Source of the DNA: a virus
Length of the DNA stretch: 30,283 bases
Direction: 5' to 3' (one strand)
IMG/VR virus record: IMGVR_UViG_3300031602_000022
Span: 1-30,283 of that record
This document shows, in pieces, positions 1 through 30,135 of this stretch. Position 1 is the first letter of the stretch; every line of letters starts with the position of its first letter. The position numbers were made by a program, and so were the translations under genes. The notes under the pieces were generated by a model. It searched no databases. It saw only the letters and a list, made by a program, of their open reading frames with translations, and was not told the DNA's origin.

Positions 1-1220
1 AGGATCTTGAGTTATTCGGACAGTCTAAGTTCCAACCGGGTGGCCTGAAGGTGATCATAACTGAAGGTGAGTTAGATGCCATAGCAGTGCAGCAGTCTAT
101 GCTTAACAAGTATAAGCGTACGTACCCTGTGGTATCCCTACCATCCTCAAGTAACATGAAGATCCTTGTGGCTAACAGAGAATGGCTCAGGTCATTTAAT
201 GAAGTCATACTAATGTTTGATCAAGATGAGGCTGGTGATAAGGCAGTAGGTGAAGCAGCTAAGATCATTGGCTGGGATAAGACATTGGTGGCTACCCTAA
301 GTGCCAATGACCCTTGTGATTCTACTCCCGAAGAAATCATGTCTTCTGTCTTCAATGCACGTAAGTATACACCTGCCTCCATCGTACGAGGTGAAGCTAT
401 CTGGGATGCATACATTGCACGTAAGGATGTGCAGTCAGTGCCATACCCCAAGTGTCTCCAAGGACTCAATGATAAGCTTGACGGTATGCGTAAGGGTGAG
501 ATTGTACTGTTCACATCAGGTACTGGCTCAGGTAAGTCAACAATGATCAAAGAGATTGTACTGGAGATCGAGGAACAGACCGAGGACAGCATTGGTATGG
601 TATCTCTCGAGGAGTCCATAGGGGATTCTGCAGAGAAGTTCATTAAGATGTTTGCACCTAAGGACCCTACTCCTGATCAAGAACGTAAGGCTTACGAGAA
701 GGTCTTTGGTAATGAAAGATTGATACTACTTGACCACAACGGTGCAGTCTCTGACTCCAGTCTAATCGACCAGATCGAGAACTTGTGTCTGTTAGGTTGT
801 GAGTATATAATCTTAGACCATATCACAATAGCAGTATCTGAAGGAGCCGGAGGTAAGACTGGTAACGAAGCTATCGATGCAATAATGTCTGATCTACTTA
901 AGGTAGTTAAGAAGCATAATGTATGGCTAGGTTTGATCAGTCACCTGAGGAAGTCTCAGAATGGTAAATCATTTGAAGAGGGTTACCTATCCTCCATAGA
1001 TGACATAAAGGGTTCAGGCTCGATCAAACAGATCAGCTTTGATATAATTACATTCTCACGCAACTTAGTGGCAGAAGATGAAGATGAACGGAATACAATT
1101 AAACTCAGAGTACTTAAGTCCAGATTTACAGGACGCACTGGAGACTGTGGTTCAGCATACTATGACACAGGAACAGGAAGACTCAAGGGACAAGAGGACT
1201 TCCTCGACTACACTGGATAA
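1..1220 (+). CDS. T7 gp4-type DNA primase-helicase (5' partial)
   Basis: This is the replicative primase-helicase, which would unwind the phage DNA and prime the lagging strand. The open frame runs in from the left edge (first full codon at base 3, reading DLELFGQSKF), so the zinc-binding and early primase domain lie outside the window. Visible first is the TOPRIM part of the primase (TEGELDA near base 60, then FDQDEAG near base 220). The RecA-like hexameric helicase follows: Walker A SGTGSGKST (near bases 515-540), Walker B YIILDH (near base 805), the SHLRK motif, and the GSGSIKQ...FSRN segment that in T7 gp4 holds the arginine-finger region. The family assignment is secure by motif order. 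The C-terminus is short (ends FLDYTG) and lacks the strongly acidic phenylalanine-ended tail of T7 gp4. Its last 59 bases overlap the likely start of the RNA polymerase gene. Confidence 0.95.
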   Translation, partial: DLELFGQSKFQPGGLKVIITEGELDAIAVQQSMLNKYKRTYPVVSLPSSSNMKILVANREWLRSFNEVILMFDQDEAGDKAVGEAAKIIGWDKTLVATLSANDPCDSTPEEIMSSVFNARKYTPASIVRGEAIWDAYIARKDVQSVPYPKCLQGLNDKLDGMRKGEIVLFTSGTGSGKSTMIKEIVLEIEEQTEDSIGMVSLEESIGDSAEKFIKMFAPKDPTPDQERKAYEKVFGNERLILLDHNGAVSDSSLIDQIENLCLLGCEYIILDHITIAVSEGAGGKTGNEAIDAIMSDLLKVVKKHNVWLGLISHLRKSQNGKSFEEGYLSSIDDIKGSGSIKQISFDIITFSRNLVAEDEDERNTIKLRVLKSRFTGRTGDCGSAYYDTGTGRLKGQEDFLDYTG

Positions 1221-3324
1221 CTCCGCTGGTATAGTCAGCATCACGGAGTACATAAAAGAAAGATGTGAGGGTAATACCTTCCGTGGTAGACCTCCAGAGG
1301 GAGCCAGACTGGTGTCTTCAATGATACCTTATGGCTATACTTACGAGAAGCTAACTGTAAGGGCCGTAGCAGGGGCTGTGGCAGCTTATCAGAAGTCCCG
1401 AAGGTCATCATCAGCACCCTTTAAACTAACCGTTACATCGACTGTGATAGGCTTACAGGTGCTGTCTGCTTTAGGCGTACTAAACACTAACCATCAGGAG
1501 ATCTTAGCTGTTGGTGATCTATACTTAGAAGCACTACTTCAACTGGGTTATATACACATTGAAAGAGAGTACTCAGGGTACAGAGCACCTTACATAATTC
1601 AACTAATGGACACATGGTCGGAGCTTGGAGATCTCCCACCTGAGTACGAGAGGGAGACACTGATTGGTACCTCCTTCACACCACCTAAGGACATAACATC
1701 ACTACGTAATGAGTTCACCAAACGTCCATACATAAAGCGCATGAGTTCAGAGGAGGACTTTAAGCAGCTTATAGGAGCACCATTTATCACTGCTCTTAAC
1801 AAGCTACAACAAACACCTTGGAGACTTAACAACACACTAGCCAAAGCCTTAGAGACTAACCTCGGATTGTTCATAGATCTTGAGGACCAGTCAATCAAAG
1901 CTAAGTCAAAGGCTATTGAGATGAAGTTTGTCATTGCAAAGATACATGCGGTAGGGTCTCACGACTTCTACCAAATGGTTGAGTGTGACTACCGAGGTCG
2001 TGTGTACTACACTGAACCCTTCTTGAACTTCCAAGGGTCTGATGTATCTAAAGGACTCTTTGAGTTTGCAGATTCTAAGGCTATGGACACTGCAGGGTAC
2101 CGATGGTTATGTATACACACAGCTTGTTCCTATAACCAATCATATGAACTAGAGGAACTACCAACATGGGTAACAGCGGACTATCGAACCTATCTGCAAG
2201 AAGAAGGGCTCTCTACCATATCAGTAGACAAGATGACCTTAAAGGACCGAGAACTGTGGACCCTAAACAACCTCGACTGGATCAACCAATTAGCGGATGG
2301 CTTGAGCTTCAGAACAGAAGCAGAAAAGCCCGTTAGTTTCCTTGCATGTTGCTTGGACGTCAGTGGGTATAACAAAGCTAGGGCTAATCGTACTGTACAT
2401 ATGAGTCGATTACCTATACCTGTTGATGGGAGTAACAATGGATGGCAACATCTGGCAGCTATATCTAAAGACAAACAAGCTGGTGAACTGGTTTCTCTCG
2501 TACCTAGTGAGATACAGAAGGACTTCTATGTCCAAGTTGCCAAGCGTCTGATAGACAGGATGCCTGACTGGTTTAATGAACGTAAGATCCCAATGAAAGC
2601 TATCCGTAAAGGTATAGCAAAGCGTGGCTCTATGACAAGGGCATACTCAGCAGGTCAGAAGAAGATTGGTGCTAATATGTACTATGACTGCAAGGTAGAA
2701 GGCTATGACAAGAAGTACAATATCACTGAAGATGACTGTACCCCTCTGTCAAAGCAACTTATACTTGCTATCAACGACACCTGCGTAGGCCCCTTAAAGA
2801 CCATGAAGTTTATTCAGAAGATGACAGACCACATACTCTCAACAGGTGAGACATGTACACAGTGGACAACTCCCTCGGGATTCCCAGTGTTATATGAGGT
2901 GTGGCGTCAGAAGAACATCACAGTACGCAGTACCATACGTGGTCTTGGGCAGATAGGTCACAGCATTAAGGTACCATACATCACACCTAGTGGTGACTTG
3001 ATACCATGCAGGAGATCATTTGCATCTGGATGTAGCCCTAACTTCGTTCACTCAATGGACGCAGCTCACATGGCTAAAGTTATCCAGAGCTTTGATGGAG
3101 ACTTCGGTGCTATACATGATTCATTCTCGACTCATGCATGTGATGTAAATAAACTAATAGACCACACCAAGTGGCAGTTCGCTATGATCTACAACAGTGA
3201 GAACTTCTTCACAGTCATAGAGAACATGCTACTAGAAACCCGAGAGGGTTACACACTTAAACAACCAGAGCTGGGAACCTTAGATATATCTGAGATCCTG
3301 TCGTCTGATTACTTCTTTTGTTAA
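1162..3324 (+). CDS. Single-subunit T7-type DNA-directed RNA polymerase
   Basis: A one-subunit polymerase that would transcribe the phage genes from phage promoters. In 720-residue numbering the landmarks are motif A VDGSNNGWQH (catalytic Asp422), motif B AKRGSMTRAY (Lys487, Tyr495, matching T7 K631/Y639), the conserved PNFVHSMDAAH block, and motif C IHDSF (Asp653). A specificity-loop-like insertion follows TTPSGFPV, and the protein ends YFFC, comparable to the aromatic 'foot' of T7 RNAP. It is clearly shorter than T7 RNAP (883 residues); the loss is in the N-terminal promoter-recognition region. The start is uncertain. ATG 1162 is chosen because the open frame upstream to 1078 is wholly inside the primase-helicase gene; no strong ribosome site precedes 1162, so translation may be coupled to the upstream gene. 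Confidence 0.93.
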   Translation: MTQEQEDSRDKRTSSTTLDNSAGIVSITEYIKERCEGNTFRGRPPEGARLVSSMIPYGYTYEKLTVRAVAGAVAAYQKSRRSSSAPFKLTVTSTVIGLQVLSALGVLNTNHQEILAVGDLYLEALLQLGYIHIEREYSGYRAPYIIQLMDTWSELGDLPPEYERETLIGTSFTPPKDITSLRNEFTKRPYIKRMSSEEDFKQLIGAPFITALNKLQQTPWRLNNTLAKALETNLGLFIDLEDQSIKAKSKAIEMKFVIAKIHAVGSHDFYQMVECDYRGRVYYTEPFLNFQGSDVSKGLFEFADSKAMDTAGYRWLCIHTACSYNQSYELEELPTWVTADYRTYLQEEGLSTISVDKMTLKDRELWTLNNLDWINQLADGLSFRTEAEKPVSFLACCLDVSGYNKARANRTVHMSRLPIPVDGSNNGWQHLAAISKDKQAGELVSLVPSEIQKDFYVQVAKRLIDRMPDWFNERKIPMKAIRKGIAKRGSMTRAYSAGQKKIGANMYYDCKVEGYDKKYNITEDDCTPLSKQLILAINDTCVGPLKTMKFIQKMTDHILSTGETCTQWTTPSGFPVLYEVWRQKNITVRSTIRGLGQIGHSIKVPYITPSGDLIPCRRSFASGCSPNFVHSMDAAHMAKVIQSFDGDFGAIHDSFSTHACDVNKLIDHTKWQFAMIYNSENFFTVIENMLLETREGYTLKQPELGTLDISEILSSDYFFC

Positions 3325-4207: not shown

Positions 4208-7200
4208 TTAATCAGCTTCACGTAGTGAATCCAACGTATACTGATGTACATCCTTAGCATTAGCTCTGATCTTCTTACGACCTTCCTTTGCATGTAACCG
4301 AAGTGCCTCAAAGTTATTCGCAAGGTTCTTAACACCAGAGTCGTTAAAGACTGCAAGTGCTAGCTGGTACAACTCCTTGTTTGTAATGTACGCCCAAGGT
4401 GCATCCCCGTACTGACTTGATTTCTTATCAAGCATAGACAAATATGCAGCAGCCCTATCAGCAAGTTTAGGATGGTAAATAGAAGTAAGACTACTCATAC
4501 CACCCATCTCACTATAAACATACTTGGCATGGTTAGGGTCTGCAGGAGATCCCGAAGGGTTACCTTCTGCCAATGCACGTAGGTTCGCAAGGCCTCTGTG
4601 AGTCGCCTCACGGATACCCTTCTGCATCTCACCTATGAGGTCATAGTTTAATGTTGTATCTAACCAAGCATCGTTTATAGCCTTATACGCAGACCTGAAT
4701 GAACCTGCATCTGTAATGATCTCGTCATAGACAGGTATGAGGTAAGGGTTTCTTCCATTCTGGGAAGCACGAAGCTTCTGAAGGGACTTGCCAGTGACTA
4801 AGGCAACAATAGATGCAGCATCAAAACCAATAGTGGTCTGAGCTAACACACCCTGACTGGCACCTAAACCTGCAACACCACTCTTCTCGTACAAGGCTGA
4901 TGTATCTGACTCATACGTTGATGTAACAGTAGACTTACTGGTTCCACCTTCACTGATATAGATACCGTCATTACCTGCTACAAACTTCTTCTTGTTAGCA
5001 ACATCAAAGAACTGCCCTTTCTCATTCTTCCTACGAGTACGAGTTACAGCAGCAGACGCTAACTTAGCCTCAGTCATAACAGTACCACTGACAGACGTTT
5101 GTTGACCTGTTGGTTGTGTGTAGATGATAGGTTCATTAACAAACCCAGTGACCTTAACATAATTCTTAAGCATATTAACATAGTTAACAACATCAGAACC
5201 TACAGTAGCCACCAGATTACCCATAAGAGCATTATTAAGAATCTTTATTGCCCTGTCAGTGCCTAGTTCACCAGCGATAAGTGCTATCTCTGAGTTAGGG
5301 TTTGAGATAACTGCCTTAACAGCATACGCTTTCATGCTCTTTAAGTCTTGACCATAAACAAAAGTCATAAGAGGGGGCTTAAGGAAGTTCGCCTTATCCT
5401 CAGTGGCTAACTTAATCAATCTTGTGATCTTCATTGCATCCTCAGGACTAGATTTACCTATTTCAGAGACAGGGTTTGTCAATAAGTTGTACTTAAGTAA
5501 GTCACGAGGGTCACCGGTAAGACCTTCAAACTCAGCCAATATCCTTGGGGATCCTTTAGGTCTATACACACCAACACGAGGCATCATATGTTCCTGACCT
5601 AACTGAGCCATAAGGCCTGCAAGTCCGTTAGCAATACCATCTTGCGCAACCATACGCATCTGAGTTGTGTACGGCTTACCAGACCTATAGGATTGCATAT
5701 AACGTGCAAGCTCTGTGGTGGCTTCTAAGACGTTAATGAACTCATCAGGATGTGCTTTAGCATTGGCATCAATGAAGTCCCTAGTGGCCTGTGAAAGGTC
5801 AGCTAAGGTTGCTTTGAAGTCTTCAAGCTCTGCATTACGAATTAAGTTATCAACACCCATCACACCCTGAGGTGTGGCCTCAAGTTGCTTAAGGTCTCTT
5901 ATAGCATTAGCATCTTCAAATGCCAGTAACCAATGCCCAACCTCAACACCTATGGCCTCAAGGGATTTAAGCTCAGGGTCATTACCAGACTGCATACGTT
6001 TGACTGTATCACGGTACACCACATCAGGCTTCAAACCACCTACCTTAAGCAGGAAAGAAGCTATAGATACAACGACACCATAGTCTTCATCTGTATTAGA
6101 CATGGGCCTGATACTGTAAAGATGTGGTGAGCCAAGTACCTGACGTACCATCTTGTGGTTCTGAGGGCTTATCTGATACTGATGCATAGTGATACGTGTA
6201 TTACCCAACTGTCGTTGAAAGGTAAAGCCTATCTGGTCATTCTTGTAGTGAGCTAACGCATTAAGAACTTCCAGTTGGTTAGTAGCATGTTTCTTATACA
6301 TACCATTCTGCCACTCAGGAGTCCTTGCAAGCTCTAAGAAATCAGACAGAACATTGACATCCATTATCAATAGCATATTATCAGTATCGTTACCAGAGTA
6401 TCTCTGTGCAGCTGCAAGCTTCTTCTTTGCTTCGTTGAGTTGATACTCAATCTCTACAGGTATGTTACGTATCTTATCAATACGCTTATGCCCAACATCA
6501 AAGAAGTCTGATACAAAGGTAAGGTGGTTGTTAGCTGAGCCTTCAGTAAGATCTACAGAGGATGCTTCCTCTAATGCAGATATACCAAAGCCAAACGCAG
6601 CCTTACCCCGTATACCACCAACAACACTCTTAACATTAGAGTAGAACTTGATTGCATCAGTGATAACATCAACCTGACCCATGTCATACTGAGACCCAGT
6701 TGTCTTCTTGGTACGTGTACTTGAAGCGTACTGTGGCTGACCAGCCTTAGAAGTCTCCCCAATAATCGGAGGTACTCTGAACTTAGGTGTGGATACCTGA
6801 CTGCTCCGTAACTGCAATGCCTTACGACCTGTAGGTGTTAGGTTGTAAACTATAGGTTGGGCCTGACCAAAGGCCATGTCACCAACAGCATCAATGTAGG
6901 ATGGGTTGGCTTCTTTATAAGCATGTAGTGCATTGAAACCTATGAGTTGATTAGCTTCTCTTGAGAACCTCTTAAACAACTTAGGGTTAACTTGAGTATC
7001 CATGCCACCTGCACGTACCTGACGGAAACCCTGCCATGCATCAGACACAGACCTACCTATGTCAGTAACAGTCCTCGACTGACTATCATTTGCAGCGTCC
7101 AGTATACCAATCTGCTTCATAATATCTTCAGACAGTGTGTCAATAACACCTTGTGGTACAAAGGAACCACTGTTGTCAAGCATGGCTTCCACTACTACAA

Positions 7201-8014
7201 ATGCATTGATAAGGTAGTCAGGATCCATGCGGTACACCCTGTTGTCATGAGAAACAACAGATGCATCAAGTCCCTGAGGACCCACAAACAAAGACTCTTG
7301 TGTTAGTGCATACCTTCCATCTTGATCTAAGGTTGCCTGACCCTCTGCAGGTGCCTTAAGGAACCCCATGTCAAGATCAAATACACTGGCTACACCCTTC
7401 TGTACCACTCCAAGACCACTTTCATACTCCGATTGAGCGACCTCAGGATCAGGAAACTTATCTGTATTCTCAAAGGATCTGGCAGTACCTAAGAGATCAA
7501 AGTCATTCTTCAGGCCTATCAGAGACCTTGCAACAACAGGGCCATTAACAGGGCCCCATATCTTCATAAGATCCTGAGGGCCTAAGTAACCAGAGTCTAG
7601 CTCCGGTGACGATCCACCTAAGTCAAATCGTTGTTGCAATGACTGTGGTGCTTCTATCTGCTCCTGCCTTTGCTCTCTTTCCACAGGGGTCTGATTAGAC
7701 TGCATGTACTCAGCTGGTACATCACCGAAGTCCATACTGGTCTGGTTAGGATCAGGTATAACACTTTGGTCAATGTCTGCGGAGGTAGTATCGATACCAC
7801 CCCATTGGACACCTTCGGGTACTGGCCCACCTCGTTCTGTGCGGGGTAGGTTTAGTTGCTTTTGTGGTGATGCGCTAAAAGGGGCAATCCCTTCAGGACC
7901 TACTTGTTCAGGGGCATTATCAAATATCCCTGCCCTCATAAGGGCATCAGCAGTGCCACTACTTAGACCTCTTTTAGGTCCACTTTGCTTTAGAGCTGTA
8001 TACTTACCAGCCAT
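4208..8014 (-). CDS. Very large internal virion / DNA-ejection protein (1268 aa)
   Basis: Last gene of the late operon. It takes the place of the terminal large ejection protein (gp16-like) of T7-type phages, which leaves the capsid with the DNA and builds the trans-envelope channel. No domain is recognised. The N-terminal 200 residues are proline- and glutamine-rich and probably disordered; the rest looks like a long mixed alpha/beta protein. The frame can be extended by five codons to a TTG at 8029. ATG 8014 is preferred because GGAGGT lies seven bases before it, giving MAGKYTALK. The preceding stop is 16 bases upstream of this ATG. The role is inferred from size, position and neighbours; structural protein is likely, exact function unproven. 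Confidence 0.75.
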   Translation of the reverse strand: MAGKYTALKQSGPKRGLSSGTADALMRAGIFDNAPEQVGPEGIAPFSASPQKQLNLPRTERGGPVPEGVQWGGIDTTSADIDQSVIPDPNQTSMDFGDVPAEYMQSNQTPVEREQRQEQIEAPQSLQQRFDLGGSSPELDSGYLGPQDLMKIWGPVNGPVVARSLIGLKNDFDLLGTARSFENTDKFPDPEVAQSEYESGLGVVQKGVASVFDLDMGFLKAPAEGQATLDQDGRYALTQESLFVGPQGLDASVVSHDNRVYRMDPDYLINAFVVVEAMLDNSGSFVPQGVIDTLSEDIMKQIGILDAANDSQSRTVTDIGRSVSDAWQGFRQVRAGGMDTQVNPKLFKRFSREANQLIGFNALHAYKEANPSYIDAVGDMAFGQAQPIVYNLTPTGRKALQLRSSQVSTPKFRVPPIIGETSKAGQPQYASSTRTKKTTGSQYDMGQVDVITDAIKFYSNVKSVVGGIRGKAAFGFGISALEEASSVDLTEGSANNHLTFVSDFFDVGHKRIDKIRNIPVEIEYQLNEAKKKLAAAQRYSGNDTDNMLLIMDVNVLSDFLELARTPEWQNGMYKKHATNQLEVLNALAHYKNDQIGFTFQRQLGNTRITMHQYQISPQNHKMVRQVLGSPHLYSIRPMSNTDEDYGVVVSIASFLLKVGGLKPDVVYRDTVKRMQSGNDPELKSLEAIGVEVGHWLLAFEDANAIRDLKQLEATPQGVMGVDNLIRNAELEDFKATLADLSQATRDFIDANAKAHPDEFINVLEATTELARYMQSYRSGKPYTTQMRMVAQDGIANGLAGLMAQLGQEHMMPRVGVYRPKGSPRILAEFEGLTGDPRDLLKYNLLTNPVSEIGKSSPEDAMKITRLIKLATEDKANFLKPPLMTFVYGQDLKSMKAYAVKAVISNPNSEIALIAGELGTDRAIKILNNALMGNLVATVGSDVVNYVNMLKNYVKVTGFVNEPIIYTQPTGQQTSVSGTVMTEAKLASAAVTRTRRKNEKGQFFDVANKKKFVAGNDGIYISEGGTSKSTVTSTYESDTSALYEKSGVAGLGASQGVLAQTTIGFDAASIVALVTGKSLQKLRASQNGRNPYLIPVYDEIITDAGSFRSAYKAINDAWLDTTLNYDLIGEMQKGIREATHRGLANLRALAEGNPSGSPADPNHAKYVYSEMGGMSSLTSIYHPKLADRAAAYLSMLDKKSSQYGDAPWAYITNKELYQLALAVFNDSGVKNLANNFEALRLHAKEGRKKIRANAKDVHQYTLDSLREAD

Positions 8015-8029
8015 AGGGTTTACCTCCAA

Positions 8030-11000
8030 TTATTTCCATTGAGTAACTTCATATAGTCTATGTTTCATTGGGCCTAAAAACGGTAGACTTCCATAGAAAC
8101 TCTTCATCATCTTAGCATCATCATCTTCAAAGTAGCCTTCAGCTATCCTGTAGATTCTCTCCACAGTTCCTGCTGCAGCTGCTTCACTTGCAACGTTATT
8201 CCATGTCCACTCTGTGAAGTCTTTACTACTGTTACCATATAGTGGTAGTAGCATTGGACTTCCTATGATACGCTCACCAGTACCTATAAGTCCGGAAGAG
8301 TAGATCATACGTAAGACCTTATCCCTGTCTGTCAAGTAGGGTGACGGTCCTCCATACTTAAGCTCGTCTTTCATAGCCTGAGACAGGAATCCCATGAACA
8401 GCATTGTAGCTGCTGAAGCAAAGGTTGAGTATCGTAATCCCTTAGAGTACTTAACACCATCCCACAAACGTGGTAACTGGTTAGAAGTAAACGCTGAGAT
8501 ATAACCATTAAACTGAGTGAGTAACATTAGATGTTGGTTACTATACGGTATAGGTCTGTTGAATGCATCTGGCATAGGTACTGCTTGGTTAATGAACCGA
8601 CCAGCCCCTATCAAGAAGTTACGTTCCCATGTGGCCTGATCAGCCTGTGACAAACCATCCCAACCAGATCTAGACTTCAAGAAGTTATTGATACGGGTGA
8701 ATGAAGCTTTCTCAGAAGCTGTGAGCTCACGCCCATCCTTAACCTTCTTATTCAACTCTCCCATCCGCATTGTATCTTCATGCGTAAGGCTTGAGATATC
8801 AGGAAGACCTAGCATCTGGTTAGAGATACGGGTCATTGCTTCAACATCAATACCTAAGTCCTTAAGCATCTTACGTGATTCCATAAGCTCAGGTGTTGGC
8901 TCCTTGCCCCTGTAACTCATTATAATATCCATCTTATCAATCAAGAAGTCATTAAAGAATGCAGCTCGTATGTTACGGTGCATCTGTGTCTGATCTTGTA
9001 AGAAGTTAGACTTAAAGAATGCGTCTGCGATATGCTTAGTCAGCTGGTTAGTTTCAACCATACCTGTTGTGGTTGCTGCTCCTGTCTCTTGGAGACTAAG
9101 TCCGACCCTCTGGACAATAGTCTCAGGGGATCCAGCAAACATCCTACGGGGGTCTCCAGCTGAACGTGCATCAGGTTCCACCTTTGCCTTAGGTTTAACC
9201 TTAAGCCCTAGTTTCTCAGCTGCACCGGATACCCTAGTGATCTCACCAAGGTTAGTTGCGTAAGACGCAAGGGCTTTACCAGCTTGGTAGCCTGCAAGAC
9301 CTATGTTATCAACAATGACTTTACGTGGTACACCATGAAACAGTAGTCCAACCTCAGGGAAAGATGAGACAGCTGCCAGACCTAAGCCTTGCATTGCAGT
9401 AAGTAAAGTCAGATATTTCTGAGCTGTCTTCAAGTAGTAACTGTCTATGCGTTTGTAGTTACCTGACTCAGCATTGATAAGGTTACGTACATGGTATGCA
9501 GCCTCATCGAACTGAGCTGTAGCTTCAGCCTGACGTTGAGGATCATCACCTGCTTTAATCATAAGACCTTTGTATAGGTTACGGAAAGCCTGATCCATCA
9601 CCTCACCATTACGACCAAGGAACTTCATATGAGTCTGATATCGTGAAGACATACGAGACACTTCCTCAACGTTATTGAAGAAGTCTTGCTCAAGGAACTC
9701 ATCAAAGAGTGCATTGTCAGACAGACCGAGTGTACGTGATTCATATTCAGATGGTGTGATACCACCCTCCATCACGTTAAATTCCTTATTGTCATCTAAT
9801 ACTGTGTCATTGATGATGTTCTCAGCGATCTTAGTTGCTTGGTCATGTGTCATACGATACTCTTTGGAAAGTAACTGAATGAACCTAGCCTTATTAGCAT
9901 CTATATACTCACGCTTGAACCCCTTATGCCTGAACATGAAGTCTTGAAGGTTATGTATAAGACCCTTACCGGCCTTTGCATTAACCTCGTTAGTCTCTTC
10001 AAAGACCCTGTTAATCATTGCTTCGTACTTAGTCAACGAACCTTCCAAGGCTTCCCTGTTCTTACGGTACTTTGGATCTACCTTATCCCAGTTGATCTTA
10101 GACATAGCCTTACGTACACCCATGTTCTTCACACCCTCTCGGTTCTTACGACCTGTGATAGGTGCTAATACTTCTTTGTAGAAAGCATTAATCATATCGG
10201 ATGCATATATCTGCTTAGATGTAGAGCTACCTAAAGGGTCACTGTCAAACTGCTTATAGTGTTCAACTGCTTTACCTGAAAGAGTTTCATGTGAAGCCTG
10301 CTTAACCCTCTGGTACTCTGCAAAGTTACTTCCATGAAAGATACCATGCCTTGTGTAACCAAATACACTTAACAATCTGGCAGCTTCAACGTCAACCTCA
10401 GCCAGCTTAATCATTGCCCGTGATGCAGAAGACCTGAAGAAGTTCTGGGGGTTCTTTATGAATGCCCAGATATCTTTAGCTCCAAGGAATCCCTCGGGGT
10501 TGTTCTTCCTGTGGTCATTTGCAGCACCTTCCATCATACTATCTTTGGATGTCTTACGACTTCCGTCTTTATTGTATGCAGTGCCGCTGTAAGCTTCGTT
10601 ATTTAAAGCTTCTTTCTCAACACGACTACTTGCAGCAGCCTGTAAATCATCAGCCCATTCATCATTAGAACGTACCTTACCATGCTTCTTAAACTCTTCT
10701 TCTTCGGCATAGTCAAACTTAGTGTTGTACATGTCAGCCTTAGATGGGTCTAAGTAATCAGCAGTTGAACTCCAATCACCTACATCAAATGCAGTCTTGG
10801 GTATTGACAATGCGCCACCCATGATACCGCCAGCAGCTATTGAGTTTATCATACGGTTCTCAACTTCATCGAAGTTCCACTCTTTATCAGAGCCAATAAC
10901 AGCAGCTGTGTACTGTGTCATTTCCTGAAGTAGTTCCGTACTACCTTCAAATACAGCACCTCTTGAAAGCTGACCAGCAACCCTCTTAAATAAAGCACCC

Positions 11001-12352
11001 TTGACTATCTGATCTTGAGCAAACTTAAACCCATCTTTGGATAGTTTAGCAAGCTCTAGTTTAGCCATTGAAGCTATCTGCTTCTCAGCGGCAGCTTCTG
11101 TCATACCTTTAGCGGTTAGGTTCTTTATAAGTTCTGCCTTACCACTACCAGTCAGGAACTGAGAAGGACCTATGATACCCTTCAGTCCTAATCGATCAGC
11201 AACCATCATCAGTGCACCAGCACCAATAGCAAGTGGTAGGTTCTTAGTACCTATGTCACCTTCCATTTCATCTAAGACTAAGCCAGTGTACATCATACCT
11301 GTTGATGTTGCTCCTATGGCACCTACAGTGCCTACAACAGCAGCTCCTGCACCTAAGGCTCCAACCACAGGCGCAGCTGCCATACCTGCAACAGTCATTG
11401 TCATGTACGGTAGTGAAGACCCGAAGATAGTTGCAAGGTAATCTGTGGAGTCATGGAAAGAGGACCAGTCAACCTGAGTTATATCTGATTGAAGCATAGG
11501 CATCTCTGCCATTTCCCTCTCAGCTGTGGCGACATTAGATGCAAAGTAAGTCTCAGCATCTTCAAACCCAGCTTCATTAGCCAGCTTCCACATAACCTGA
11601 TCAAAGCCTTTACCGATACCCATCCATGAGACATCCCAGCTTGCACTCATTGGAGAGTACGCCATACCCTCCGAGTCAGCCCCATCCACACGAGTACGAA
11701 TACCCTTGTATAGATCTGGGTTAGCTGCGTACTCTTGCATGTTGAACGCCATAACCTTTTCAATAGGTATGCCACCAGAGTGTGCTGTCTCAGCAGAACG
11801 AAGTAACTTAGCAGCCTTCTCCCAATCTGATAACTTATCAAAGTTAGGGTCACGCATCTCACGTTGATATACACCACCCATATATACATCAGACCCATAG
11901 GGATCTGTAGTCTCCTTAGACTTACCCATATATCCGGGGAGTACCATACCAGATGCAAGTAGCATGTCTGATAATGCAACACCATCGGAGTCATATAGGT
12001 CACCCAGTGAACGATCATGTGTGTCAAGCTCGTCACCTGCGGATACCTTTGTGAATCCATTCCTAGTGGCAAGATCCCAGATGTATTGTGTTGCTAGTTC
12101 ACCACCAACTTCACCATGTTTAAACCCAGCATCATCACCTTGAGTAATTAACTTGCCAACCTCACGGGTATCAACGTTACCGACACGAACTCGTTGACCT
12201 GTCTTAAGGTTCTTAGCTGTATCTCCATCAATTAAGGCCCAATCGGAATCCCCAAGTCTATAGGAAGGTGCTTGAGATGATCCTACCTCATCTCCAGTTT
12301 TGTAATCTTCAAAAACAGAAGACAAAGCCTCCATCGTATCATCTCTAAGCAT
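8030..12352 (-). CDS. Giant ejection protein with N-terminal SNase-like nuclease domain (1440 aa)
   Basis: A predicted internal virion protein. Residues about 36-137 match the staphylococcal-nuclease fold pattern: IDGDT (Asp42, Asp44), RVRVGNVDTRE (Arg56, Asp61, Glu64) and HDRSLGDLY (Arg114). Arg56-Asp61-Glu64 has exactly the SNase Arg35-Asp40-Glu43 spacing, and Arg114 fits Arg87, so the active site looks complete. Residues about 305-361 and 371-390 form glycine/alanine-rich hydrophobic segments able to insert into membrane, as expected of a channel-forming ejection protein. An EGSTELLQE motif follows near residue 475. The C-terminal half is long and mostly helical. The start at 12352 follows AAGGAAT, three bases after the preceding stop. 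The whole-protein role is inferred from size and position between two other large ejection proteins; the nuclease call rests on motif spacing. Confidence 0.8.
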   Translation of the reverse strand: MLRDDTMEALSSVFEDYKTGDEVGSSQAPSYRLGDSDWALIDGDTAKNLKTGQRVRVGNVDTREVGKLITQGDDAGFKHGEVGGELATQYIWDLATRNGFTKVSAGDELDTHDRSLGDLYDSDGVALSDMLLASGMVLPGYMGKSKETTDPYGSDVYMGGVYQREMRDPNFDKLSDWEKAAKLLRSAETAHSGGIPIEKVMAFNMQEYAANPDLYKGIRTRVDGADSEGMAYSPMSASWDVSWMGIGKGFDQVMWKLANEAGFEDAETYFASNVATAEREMAEMPMLQSDITQVDWSSFHDSTDYLATIFGSSLPYMTMTVAGMAAAPVVGALGAGAAVVGTVGAIGATSTGMMYTGLVLDEMEGDIGTKNLPLAIGAGALMMVADRLGLKGIIGPSQFLTGSGKAELIKNLTAKGMTEAAAEKQIASMAKLELAKLSKDGFKFAQDQIVKGALFKRVAGQLSRGAVFEGSTELLQEMTQYTAAVIGSDKEWNFDEVENRMINSIAAGGIMGGALSIPKTAFDVGDWSSTADYLDPSKADMYNTKFDYAEEEEFKKHGKVRSNDEWADDLQAAASSRVEKEALNNEAYSGTAYNKDGSRKTSKDSMMEGAANDHRKNNPEGFLGAKDIWAFIKNPQNFFRSSASRAMIKLAEVDVEAARLLSVFGYTRHGIFHGSNFAEYQRVKQASHETLSGKAVEHYKQFDSDPLGSSTSKQIYASDMINAFYKEVLAPITGRKNREGVKNMGVRKAMSKINWDKVDPKYRKNREALEGSLTKYEAMINRVFEETNEVNAKAGKGLIHNLQDFMFRHKGFKREYIDANKARFIQLLSKEYRMTHDQATKIAENIINDTVLDDNKEFNVMEGGITPSEYESRTLGLSDNALFDEFLEQDFFNNVEEVSRMSSRYQTHMKFLGRNGEVMDQAFRNLYKGLMIKAGDDPQRQAEATAQFDEAAYHVRNLINAESGNYKRIDSYYLKTAQKYLTLLTAMQGLGLAAVSSFPEVGLLFHGVPRKVIVDNIGLAGYQAGKALASYATNLGEITRVSGAAEKLGLKVKPKAKVEPDARSAGDPRRMFAGSPETIVQRVGLSLQETGAATTTGMVETNQLTKHIADAFFKSNFLQDQTQMHRNIRAAFFNDFLIDKMDIIMSYRGKEPTPELMESRKMLKDLGIDVEAMTRISNQMLGLPDISSLTHEDTMRMGELNKKVKDGRELTASEKASFTRINNFLKSRSGWDGLSQADQATWERNFLIGAGRFINQAVPMPDAFNRPIPYSNQHLMLLTQFNGYISAFTSNQLPRLWDGVKYSKGLRYSTFASAATMLFMGFLSQAMKDELKYGGPSPYLTDRDKVLRMIYSSGLIGTGERIIGSPMLLPLYGNSSKDFTEWTWNNVASEAAAAGTVERIYRIAEGYFEDDDAKMMKSFYGSLPFLGPMKHRLYEVTQWK
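11942..12247 (-). other. SNase-like (thermonuclease) domain within the 1440-aa ejection protein
   Basis: This covers codons 36-137. The metal-binding and catalytic positions of staphylococcal nuclease (Asp21, Arg35, Asp40, Glu43, Arg87) have counterparts at Asp44, Arg56, Asp61, Glu64 and Arg114. The terminal helix-like segment ALSDMLLASGMV corresponds to the family's 'VNEALVRQGLA' region. Between the two halves there is the usual helical stretch (ELATQYIWDLATRNGF). Confidence 0.75.
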
Positions 12353-12355
12353 ATT

Positions 12356-14701
12356 CTATTCCTTCTTATTGCTCGGCATAATGCCAAGATCTGTGTATAC
12401 ATTTATATTAAGACTTGCATAACTGCTGTGCTGCCTGCCCGGATCTGTAGAAGAGGCCAGCCACATGATGAAAGGTGAGGACATGTTAGAGTCCTTAGCC
12501 TGCTTCTTCCAGAAGTCCATGTGTTTCGGAGGTATTGCTTGGAAGCTCTTGTTAAGTTGTATGAGGATGTGAGACTTAGTAGCTTCAGTTTTCATAACGT
12601 ATTTTAACTCTTCCTTCTGATCCTCTGTGACAGTTTTTAAATCATTAGCCTTAGATATAATAACATTCTGCTCTCCATGAATCTTATTAAGTCTCTCTGA
12701 TAGTATGTTCATTGCCTCTGTGCCAACAACCTTACCCTCTGAGTGATAGATAGACTTAGGTACTTGCACCACACCTGAGGTTATCATTGCCCGATCTAAG
12801 TGACCCATCAATGAAGCTATCTTAACTTCCTCACCATTAGCAACAGCTGAGGAGTACGACTCCATAGCTCGTCTGAGCATTGGAATACTCTTCTCAAGTC
12901 CATCAATGCCATAGGAGTCAGTGTAAGAGTCAACCATCTGTTGTGACAGACCAGCTTCTTGGAACATCTGAGTTACTTTAGCTACGTTACCTTTGTCATA
13001 CATACCCTCACCATCCGCATTCTTGGTTTGAGTATTCAACCTGTTCAATATCTGATCTTGGATCCTATTGACACTGTCTGTTGCATCTAGCTTACGAGTC
13101 TGACGATCCTTCTCACCTGTAGCAGCAGGTCTCCATCCTGTCTTAGAGACATCAATAGTACCTAGCTTAGGGTGGTTAAGGGACTTACCGTTCTTGGATG
13201 CGTACACCTTCTGGAAGTTACCATACTTGTCAACATAGTTAACAGTCTTAGACATATCAACAGCATCGTTTTCAGCAGCCTTAGCTGTTGCAGTCTGATC
13301 AAGCAAGTCTGCGTCAGCTTGGTTATCCCAACCTTTGAGTAACACCTGACCGGCAGCCATACCTGAACCACTAGCTGAGTAGCCCATAAGACGAGAACCC
13401 ATGTAGTATACAAATGCATTCTGGATAGCCTTGTCATCCCACAGTTCACCCAGTGCATTGACAGCACCTTCCATCATGTCTTTGAATGGGATACCATCAA
13501 TCAATCCTGCAAAGAAACTTGTAACGGTGTTAGTAACTTCTTCCTCATCTTCCTCATCTACAGTCTGGAAAGACCTTAATTGATCAGGCGTCAGTCCAGA
13601 GGCTAGTTTGATAACTTTATCTACAGAATTTTTATCTTCTTCCGGGAGGTTATCAATAGCCTTCTGTTCAGCTTGTTGCTTTTGTATCAACGAGATGTCA
13701 TTCAGTTTAGCCTCCAACTCCCCCTTAACTCGGAACAAGCCGGAGCCTTCAGCATCTGATTTAGCCATAGCTGCGTTAGCAGGTCCATATCTTTCAAAGG
13801 TTTGAGCTATCTGGCGGTTGATATTGTCTAACTCTTCTTGAGTTGCTGCTGCAGATTCACCATAGGCATCACCTGCGGAAGCCTTAACGTCTGCAAGATT
13901 CTTCTCAGCACCAGCAATCATCTCTGGGCTTGCGTCAACCTCACGCATAATCTTTAAGTTCTCTTCAGCAACAGCGATAGCCTGTGTACTTTCCTTGTCA
14001 TATTCTGACTGTGTGAGATCTAACTCATTTCTGACATCCCAAGTACTACTTACGAATCCCTCTGTACCATTCGCCCACGCCCACATCTCTGTCTTTTCAA
14101 GATCCTCAGGTCTTCCGAGATTCTCTGAAGTTAAGGCCGCAAGCACCGGGTTAGCTACCTTAGTTACAGTACTAAGTGGTTTAAGTATTGAGCTCAGTGC
14201 TGGATACTTCACCGGTACTGGCTTGCCAAGGTTAGTTAAAACCTTCTTCCACTTACTCTTTGTCTTGTCCCATTCGTATCCTTCAGGTTTAGGTATCTTA
14301 TTACCACTGGAGTCTGTGAATGTTGTCTTAGATCCGAGTACCTTACGACCATTCACATCTAGCTTAGCTTTCTCAGCAGCTTGCGCATTAGGCCCTAAGT
14401 TCCTACGTACAGGTGTGTTGGTTTTCTTAGGTGGTGGTGGGGTTGACTTAGCACTGGCAGCTTTTGCAGCATCTAGTGTTGTCTTACGGGCAGGCTGTGG
14501 ACGTCCAGTGCCACTATCCACTTTAGCTGCTGCTCGTGCTCGTGCTTGCTCCTCAGCGTATGTAGGTACTCTTGCTCTCTCCGGTGGAACATTTGCTCTT
14601 TCCCGTGGAACATTCGACTCTGAATGAGCCTCCATAGGTGGACCATCATATAGATTACCACCTCCAAAAAGAAGCCCTAGTTGTTCAATTAATCCACTCA
14701 T
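12356..14701 (-). CDS. Large internal virion / ejection protein (781 aa)
   Basis: Third of the three large proteins at the end of the late operon, in the place of T7 gp15-like proteins. The first 130 residues are basic, proline- and alanine-rich and probably unfolded, with a short internal repeat (VPRERANVPPERARVP) and PPPPKK. Residues about 200-360 are predicted helical or coiled coil, rich in Ala, Glu and Gln. An acidic patch DEEDEEE follows, then a hydrophobic stretch (FFAGLIDGIPF and QNAFVYYMGSRLMGYSASG) and a second helical region. No enzymatic motif is seen. Start ATG 14701 overlaps the previous stop (TAATG), with GGAGGAAAG just upstream. Assignment is by size, composition and position. 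Confidence 0.7.
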   Translation of the reverse strand: MSGLIEQLGLLFGGGNLYDGPPMEAHSESNVPRERANVPPERARVPTYAEEQARARAAAKVDSGTGRPQPARKTTLDAAKAASAKSTPPPPKKTNTPVRRNLGPNAQAAEKAKLDVNGRKVLGSKTTFTDSSGNKIPKPEGYEWDKTKSKWKKVLTNLGKPVPVKYPALSSILKPLSTVTKVANPVLAALTSENLGRPEDLEKTEMWAWANGTEGFVSSTWDVRNELDLTQSEYDKESTQAIAVAEENLKIMREVDASPEMIAGAEKNLADVKASAGDAYGESAAATQEELDNINRQIAQTFERYGPANAAMAKSDAEGSGLFRVKGELEAKLNDISLIQKQQAEQKAIDNLPEEDKNSVDKVIKLASGLTPDQLRSFQTVDEEDEEEVTNTVTSFFAGLIDGIPFKDMMEGAVNALGELWDDKAIQNAFVYYMGSRLMGYSASGSGMAAGQVLLKGWDNQADADLLDQTATAKAAENDAVDMSKTVNYVDKYGNFQKVYASKNGKSLNHPKLGTIDVSKTGWRPAATGEKDRQTRKLDATDSVNRIQDQILNRLNTQTKNADGEGMYDKGNVAKVTQMFQEAGLSQQMVDSYTDSYGIDGLEKSIPMLRRAMESYSSAVANGEEVKIASLMGHLDRAMITSGVVQVPKSIYHSEGKVVGTEAMNILSERLNKIHGEQNVIISKANDLKTVTEDQKEELKYVMKTEATKSHILIQLNKSFQAIPPKHMDFWKKQAKDSNMSSPFIMWLASSTDPGRQHSSYASLNINVYTDLGIMPSNKKE

Positions 14702-15391: not shown

Positions 15392-16144
15392 TTAATCTCC
15401 AGTTATTGTAGCCCAGAAGGACTCAAACTTATCTTTATGTTTCTTAGGTATCCTTTCTGTCACTTCTCTCTGAGGTTTACCACTCTGATCACCGCCAAAG
15501 ATACTATTAATGAAGTCATTAACAGGACTGAGAAACCCAGCATCAGCTTGTGGAGGAGCCTCCTGCGTTTGTTGAGGTACTTGTTGAGATACTTGCTGCG
15601 TCTGCAACTGCTGACCAACTTGTATACTATTGATATCTTGTATTGAATTCAAACTTGCCAATTGCTGCACAGTCATCCCTGCATCGTTAGCTATCTTAGT
15701 CAGGTTGTCACCTGATTGAACTGTATACTGTTGACTATTAACTTGAGGTACTGGTTCTTCAATCGGTACTGGGACTGACCCTTCAGGTCTCCATCCAAAC
15801 TGATCGAACTTACCAACATACTCTGAGGTCTCCGGTGGCATCTCTGTGAGATCACCACTAATAAACTTAAGCATGTTACCCGGACCCCAGTTGTAGGCTT
15901 GTAGTGTCTGCGTAGGTGTCCAGTCATACTGACGCTGCATACCAGCTAGGTAATCCCCAGCAGCCTTACGGGCCTGAACTGGATCTAACGGGTCAAAGGC
16001 TTTAACACCATAACCCATGTCACTTACATACTGAGGCATGAATTGGTACTCACCTACAGCTCCTGCTGGAGAAACTGCGTCATTGTTTCCACTAGATTCT
16101 ACCATACGGAGAGCATCAAGTAGCTCTGGGGTTATCCAACTCAT
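15392..16144 (-). CDS. Lytic transglycosylase with LysM domain (virion or lysis muramidase)
   Basis: Cleaves peptidoglycan. Residues 1-115 are an SLT-type transglycosylase domain: catalytic Glu16 in MVESSGN, then GAVGEYQFMP, and AYNWGPGN near residue 85. Residues about 139-181 are a LysM peptidoglycan-binding motif (YTVQSGDNLTKIA ... INSIQVGQQL). A glutamine-rich linker and a basic C-terminus follow. There is no signal peptide. In T7 this activity is part of gp16; here it is a separate 250-residue gene set among ejection-protein genes, which suggests it enters the envelope with the virion to open the wall. It is also the only peptidoglycan hydrolase seen in the window, so it might serve host lysis too. 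The start follows AAAGGAAA. Confidence 0.9.
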   Translation of the reverse strand: MSWITPELLDALRMVESSGNNDAVSPAGAVGEYQFMPQYVSDMGYGVKAFDPLDPVQARKAAGDYLAGMQRQYDWTPTQTLQAYNWGPGNMLKFISGDLTEMPPETSEYVGKFDQFGWRPEGSVPVPIEEPVPQVNSQQYTVQSGDNLTKIANDAGMTVQQLASLNSIQDINSIQVGQQLQTQQVSQQVPQQTQEAPPQADAGFLSPVNDFINSIFGGDQSGKPQREVTERIPKKHKDKFESFWATITGD

Positions 16145-29571: not shown

Positions 29572-30135
29572 TTATATCCCCTCTCTTTCAGACATACTAA
29601 TCCAGCCTGTTGCTATATATTTTCTTTGACTATAAACAGGGTTTCCCCTATGCGTATGTGTCCATGCAGCAGGGAATATAACCATTGTCCCCTTTTTAGG
29701 CTGTATCTTAAGACCTTGTTCAAGAAGCTCAGTTGTACCTTCACCTTCAACAACATCGTTAAGGTATACTGTGTACACTAATTCCCTAAGAGAATACTCT
29801 TGCAACCCACGTTCAGAGTGAAAGGTATGAAAGCCACCTTTAGGTCTAGTTTCTTGTACTTTAACGTTCTTTAAGTAAAGATTTCTAGGAGCTAAAGAAG
29901 GATGCTCGTCAATGTACTCACGCAATTTTACTATTGCAACATCCATAAACTCAGAAGTTAAATCACCATCCTCTATATCTAAAAAGAAGCTTATGTCCTT
30001 ACGTTCAGGGTTAGTGTCTTGGCCTAATTGAGGCCCAGTTATAGAGTTTTTCTGTAGCTTTAAATGTTTTTCAATAATTCGGTCGCAAAGGTCATCAGGT
30101 ATAGCCTTTTCATAAAGACTTACAAAGTTACTCAT
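29572..30135 (-). CDS. 2OG-Fe(II) oxygenase, prolyl-4-hydroxylase-like (187 aa)
   Basis: A predicted dioxygenase using 2-oxoglutarate, O2 and Fe(II). The double-stranded beta-helix landmarks are: first metal ligands in FHTFHSERG (His106-x-Glu108, or His103), strand YTVYLNDVVEGEGTTEL, the PKKGTMVIFPAAW strand, the distal histidine in THTHRGNPV (His160 or His162), and the co-substrate-binding basic residue in QRKYIATGW (Arg171/Lys172). The proximal acid is Glu instead of the more common Asp. Length fits phage members. The start overlaps the fibre stop (ATGA) and has AAAGGAAA. Sitting between fibre genes, it may hydroxylate a fibre or a host surface protein; the substrate is unknown. Confidence 0.85.
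   Translation of the reverse strand: MSNFVSLYEKAIPDDLCDRIIEKHLKLQKNSITGPQLGQDTNPERKDISFFLDIEDGDLTSEFMDVAIVKLREYIDEHPSLAPRNLYLKNVKVQETRPKGGFHTFHSERGLQEYSLRELVYTVYLNDVVEGEGTTELLEQGLKIQPKKGTMVIFPAAWTHTHRGNPVYSQRKYIATGWISMSEREGI

Follow-up and report, generated by a model that had tools for sequence, protein, structure and literature searches.

A staphylococcal nuclease domain at the N-terminus of a predicted ejection protein of a CRP-7-related phage

We have identified a staphylococcal nuclease (SNase) domain at the N-terminus of a 1440-aa protein that is encoded in a stretch of 30,283 bases from an IMG/VR virus record (hereafter the window). Profile comparisons and a predicted fold show that residues ~35-145 of this protein form the domain. 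Structural-protein homology and gene order support the protein well as a virion component, and by the same reasoning it would be ejected. The domain is predicted to be catalytic. The enzyme family is known; the architecture is new.

The window contains a long leftward late module and a rightward replication end that encodes a primase/helicase, a single-subunit RNA polymerase, and MazG. Near the window end, the protein encoded at 29572-30135 (-) exhibits similarity to phrog_61 (2OG-Fe(II) oxygenase, E 1e-37) and phrog_2297 (DNA endonuclease). The best named relative of the window phage is Roseobacter phage CRP-7 (MK613349), a podovirus of 58.1 kb that belongs to the marine RCA lineage (PMC6918029). 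The tblastn search of the 1440-aa protein against 50,697 phage records gave no match; CRP-7 was reached via the neighbouring RNA polymerase gene and a 522-aa structural gene. The window phage is presumably marine, given its kinship with CRP-7. In both phages the late module is closed by three large genes, the products of which are 781, 1440, and 1273 aa long in the window and 1223, 1368, and 1235 aa long in CRP-7. The features that were assigned in the window are listed in Table 1.

Table 1. Features of the SNase-carrying protein and its neighbours in the window.
Feature	Coordinates	Strand	Basis
SNase (staphylococcal/micrococcal nuclease) domain	11918..12250	-	residues ~35-145 of the 1440-aa protein; hmmsearch against PDB, hhalign, AlphaFold2 with Foldseek and VIA
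D42-G-D44-T45 motif (SNase D19, D21, T22)	12218..12229	-	D42, D44, and T45 invariant in 12 relatives
R56 (SNase R35)	12185..12187	-	invariant; aligned to R35
D61 (SNase D40, Ca ligand)	12170..12172	-	D in window and CRP-7 types; N/S in L028-L031 and L047
E64 (SNase E43)	12161..12163	-	invariant
R114 (SNase R87)	12011..12013	-	invariant
1440-aa internal virion protein, predicted ejection protein, SNase domain N-terminal	8030..12352	-	phrog_6958 virion structural protein, E=3e-12; orthologue CRP-7 gp34
Adjacent 1273-aa late protein, putative virion RNA polymerase	4208..8029	-	phrog_414 (T7-like RNA polymerase), E=2e-7; motifs A, B, and C; PF00940 in homologues
781-aa late protein, putative ejection protein	12356..14701	-	gene order
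250-aa SLT transglycosylase with LysM, probable peptidoglycan hydrolase	15392..16144	-	PF01464, E=1e-14; PF01476, E=8e-14

The initial annotation had reported three SNase-like motifs within 11942-12247, which corresponds to residues 36-137. All three were found there in the 1440-aa reading frame, counted from its starting ATG: IDGDT at residues 41-45, RVRVGNVDTRE at 54-64, and HDRSLGDLY at 112-120. The spacing of R56, D61, and E64 equals that of R35, D40, and E43 in SNase. In the HMM alignments D44, R56, D61, E64, and R114 fall on D21, R35, D40, E43, and R87, so the catalytic set is complete in the window. SNase Y85 corresponds to His in the window; most relatives have Tyr there. A pattern defined post hoc, D.DT-x(8,18)-R-x4-D-x2-E-x(30,70)-R, occurred in 17 of 20,000 shuffled versions of the full protein. 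A chance motif was ruled out by these shuffles and by the column shuffles of the profile comparison given below. The stronger case against chance is that the residues are kept in relatives that are ~25% identical and that no other 104-residue stretch of the protein is as conserved as the domain (residues 40-143).

The domain is hardly visible from the window sequence alone. The single-sequence Pfam scan of the protein gave no SNase match, so that routine annotation misses the domain. The phmmer search of the domain against PDB matched staphylococcal nuclease with E 0.77; in PHROGs, an 'endonuclease' family was matched at E 0.004. Because these searches were weak or empty, relatives were needed to test the assignment. 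The hmmsearch of profile A3 against PDB returned 41 sequences at E<10, all of them staphylococcal nuclease. After the third lineage was added (profile A5; 12 relatives), the best E was 1.4e-5, all 60 matches listed were staphylococcal nuclease, and D21, R35, D40, E43, and R87 were in register in the alignment. The hhalign comparison with 68 bacterial SNases gave 96.7% probability (E 4e-10), against at most 1.3% for 100 column shuffles and 1.5% for the reversed profile. Each of the three lineages alone reached 95.6, 70.5, and 78.0%. The Pfam family PF00565 has a cut-off of 21 bits, which is exceeded by the orthologue L018 (66% identical, 22.0 bits); L006, L028, L029, and L047 scored 12.6-14.6 bits.

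The predicted fold also agrees with SNase. The AlphaFold2 model of the domain has a mean pLDDT of 70.9, with core blocks at 86-91 and residues 1-28 disordered. The top 50 Foldseek matches of the model in PDB were all SNase (best E 3.3e-5). The VIA comparison gave Z 8.9 and 3.4 A over 96 residues, with nearly all rows from staphylococcal nuclease. Another fold for the domain was ruled out by these two comparisons. The domain therefore has in common with staphylococcal nuclease and PF00565 the fold, the order of the elements, the equivalents of D19, D21, T22, R35, D40, E43, and R87, and the R35-D40-E43 spacing. It differs in that it is ~25% identical, has His at Y85, and has lost D40 in the most distant relatives. 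Staphylococcal nuclease is also a secreted stand-alone enzyme, whereas the window domain is the N-terminal part of a 1440-aa phage virion protein.

Three lineages of relatives were identified. The first consists of seven loci with the window-type domain, from identical down to 91% identity, and L018, which is 64-66% identical to the window. The second consists of CRP-7 gp34 and its relatives L010-L014, which are ~27% identical in the domain. The third consists of L028-L031 (~25% identical) and L047, the single new locus from the scan with this lineage. The domain is N-terminal on the same long protein in all relatives found. CRP-7 gp34 is the orthologue of the window protein, with the same gene position, the same N-terminal SNase domain, and all catalytic residues, and is 24% identical to it overall. 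In BLASTP between the two proteins, the domain was aligned on its own at 34% identity (E 1e-8). The domain is under purifying selection, with dN/dS of 0.09-0.20 between close relatives, as in the remainder of the gene. Cellulophaga phi46:3 was rejected as a phage relative, with E 5 over 43 aligned residues of a virion protein of 416 aa that is encoded next to tail-fibre genes. The scan of genome contigs with the domain alignment gave 98 pattern matches and no relatives, and thus no provirus evidence.

D42, D44, T45, R56, E64, and R114 are invariant across the three lineages, CRP-7 gp34 included. The loss of R56, E64, or R114 in relatives, which would have spoken against the assignment, was seen in none of those examined. 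The complete active site that was initially proposed holds for the window; it is not universal, since the most distant lineage has Asn or Ser in place of the Ca ligand D61. This substitution would suit a non- or barely catalytic OB-fold that binds nucleic acid, either to hold the DNA by its leading end or to steer it through the ejection channel, and so would the hazard of a nuclease next to the packaged genome (PMC9026906). However, D21 is invariant together with R35, E43, and R87, which serve catalysis and not folding in SNase. Asn at D40 is also present in 7 of the 68 bacterial SNases, which had been sampled by a GC-rich pattern admitting D or N at this position, so Asn alone does not denote a dead enzyme. 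A non-catalytic role is hence considered unlikely, and an active domain is preferred.

The carrier protein was placed among the virion and ejection proteins by the initial annotation, and structural-protein homology and gene order agree with this placement. The C-terminal region of the homologues L029 and L031 is similar to 'particle proteins' of Vibrio podophages and to a 'structural protein' of KPP25. The SNase motifs are absent from the full KIT05, 1.262.O, and KPP25 proteins, as checked by reading and not by profile. The fusion thus appears to be lineage-specific, since Vibrio and Pseudomonas phages have homologues of the C-terminal region without the domain. The survey of homologues that had been proposed at the outset located the domain at the N-terminus in the CRP-7, window, and L031 lineages, to which the fusion appears to be limited. 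It is very improbable that the protein is not ejected but stays in the particle or serves assembly, with the nuclease acting in maturation or packaging. The homologues are annotated as particle or structural proteins, and the gene lies late, next to genes for wall hydrolases and for a predicted virion RNA polymerase.

The neighbouring genes fit an entry module. The structural module ends with consecutive genes for the SLT-LysM protein and for proteins of 228, 781, 1440, and 1273 aa; the CRP-7 counterpart is gp33-gp35. A pesticin/lysozyme-type domain is carried by the neighbour gp35 in CRP-7, whereas the SLT-LysM protein is a separate gene in the window. This domain of gp35 (L009:13697-17368), a large and unannotated late protein, is N-terminal, of the pesticin/phage-lysozyme type, and above the Pfam cut-off.

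The 1273-aa protein, which matches CRP-7 gp33 in position, looks like a virion RNA polymerase; we regard this as a strong lead and not as proof. It carries motif A (AQDGIANGLAG), motif B (LKPPLMTFVYG), and a C-like motif (VYDEIIT), and the phage's own RNA polymerase is encoded separately at 1078-3324. In an alignment of ten sequences, the motif A Asp is kept (as DGxxNGLA for the window and L031 types and as DARQSNAG for the CRP-7 type), as are motif B (K-x3-M-x3-Y-G, where the CRP-7 type has R for K) and the Asp of the C-like motif (I-x-D). PF00940 matched homologues at E 1.3e-4 and 2.3e-4, slightly below the cut-off. The AlphaFold2 model of the putative polymerase had pLDDT 48.5 and no Foldseek match at E <= 0.001, and the PDB profile search gave nothing relevant; the assignment hence rests on the motifs, phrog_414, and PF00940. 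Ejection would be more credible with a virion RNA polymerase encoded next to the SNase protein. In L029 (12042-16243) the RNA-polymerase-like gene lies in overlapping frames, probably due to a sequencing or assembly frameshift, and it is intact in L028, L030, and L031.

The 781-aa protein has no Pfam or PHROGs family match. Its gene, directly upstream of that of the SNase protein, varies strongly in length and N-terminus among close relatives: the product has ~610 aa in L018 and other N-termini in L003, L005, and L006, despite SNase domains that are 91-94% identical in the latter three. This protein and its counterparts are probably a variable component of the ejection module.

The reading that we favour, and consider fairly probable, is that the domain is an active, ejected SNase that attacks host nucleic acid. 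The protein would be stored in the capsid of a CRP-7-type podovirus as a large internal virion protein fused to the domain, and would be ejected ahead of or with the DNA. Its neighbours would be ejected with it: a wall hydrolase (of transglycosylase or lysozyme type), another large protein, and the putative virion RNA polymerase. After delivery, the domain would refold, bind Ca2+ through D44 and D61, and, by an R35/E43/R87-type mechanism, cut nucleic acid either at the site of entry or within the cytoplasm. The most likely role would be to attack host nucleic acid at once, for the salvage of nucleotides, for shut-off, or to clear away competing DNA or RNA. The initial proposal of an injected nuclease that destroys host nucleic acid or processes ends is plausible from the sequence, and injected polyvalent proteins with other nucleases are a natural parallel (PMC5512222).

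The T7 gp16/P22 gp16 class likewise comprises large internal virion proteins among the ejection proteins, with an N-terminal enzymatic domain in T7; the likeness drawn here is one of architecture. The N-terminal domain of T7 gp16 is a transglycosylase, whereas the window protein starts with SNase and the SLT domain lies on a separate open reading frame. The enzymatic domain of T7 gp16 is located in the periplasmic tunnel (PMC8954989). If the window protein follows a similar topology, the SNase domain would stop short of the host chromosome, and the target may be at the envelope. A nuclease that acts outside the cytoplasm (within the periplasm, or against extracellular DNA on the surface of the cell) or on phage DNA (trimming the phage's own ends or stalled molecules) would be in line with this topology. 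It would also be in line with the BtI1 homologue of 0305phi8-36 gp147, a baseplate hub protein whose N-terminus has an SNase-related domain at the place of a tail lysozyme, the purpose of which was 'not obvious' to its authors (Hardies 2007, PMC2147016). The BtI1 protein resembles the window protein in having the SNase domain N-terminal on an entry-related virion protein. However, it belongs to a myovirus/prophage tail hub, the window protein is an internal podovirus protein, and the two are likened here by architecture. The equivalence with gp16 is also an assumption, and no need for end processing is known. Such sites of action are judged quite unlikely, and the attack on host nucleic acid remains our preferred reading.

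If the domain is active, it must be asked how the phage shields its own genome from a packaged nuclease with intact catalytic residues. Seawater contains ~10 mM Ca2+, which rules out low calcium as the safeguard of a CRP-7-like phage. The initial suggestion of an escape by low calcium is also unlikely for a seawater phage given the engineered T4 that carries CTS-staphylococcal nuclease (PMC9026906). When external Ca2+ was added to T4 heads with up to 200 molecules of the nuclease, their own DNA was digested and infectivity was lost within minutes. This makes the question of self-protection concrete, and it means that a marine phage must restrain the domain, since the enzyme would kill such a phage if left unrestrained. 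The T4 system is artificial, whereas a natural marine phage must have solved the hazard. The same system also shows that an SNase packaged in the capsid can be delivered on infection and act (PMC9026906), as is proposed here. The domain would be kept off the genome most simply by a portal-proximal location in the core and unfolded passage through the tail. Unfolded storage, a DNA-free core, another metal, and modified DNA remain as options for the restraint.

A broader proposal, which we put forward tentatively as possible, is that CRP-7-type phages eject a multi-enzyme kit of a wall hydrolase, an active SNase on an internal protein, and a ~1270-1400-aa single-subunit virion RNA polymerase distinct from that of N4, with the nuclease silenced until delivery. 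Ejection of several enzymes by a phage that stays in calcium-rich water would call for such built-in silencing.

In the part of the literature that was covered, no report of an SNase domain in a podoviral internal or ejection protein was found; the prior art is the SNase domain of the prophage baseplate-hub protein (Hardies 2007, PMC2147016). Standard annotation overlooks the domain, and CRP-7 gp34 is labelled 'hypothetical'. Direct testing is possible because CRP-7 is a cultured representative. The finding would place a potentially very aggressive nuclease among the proteins that accompany the genome into the cell, in a type of marine phage that is widespread.
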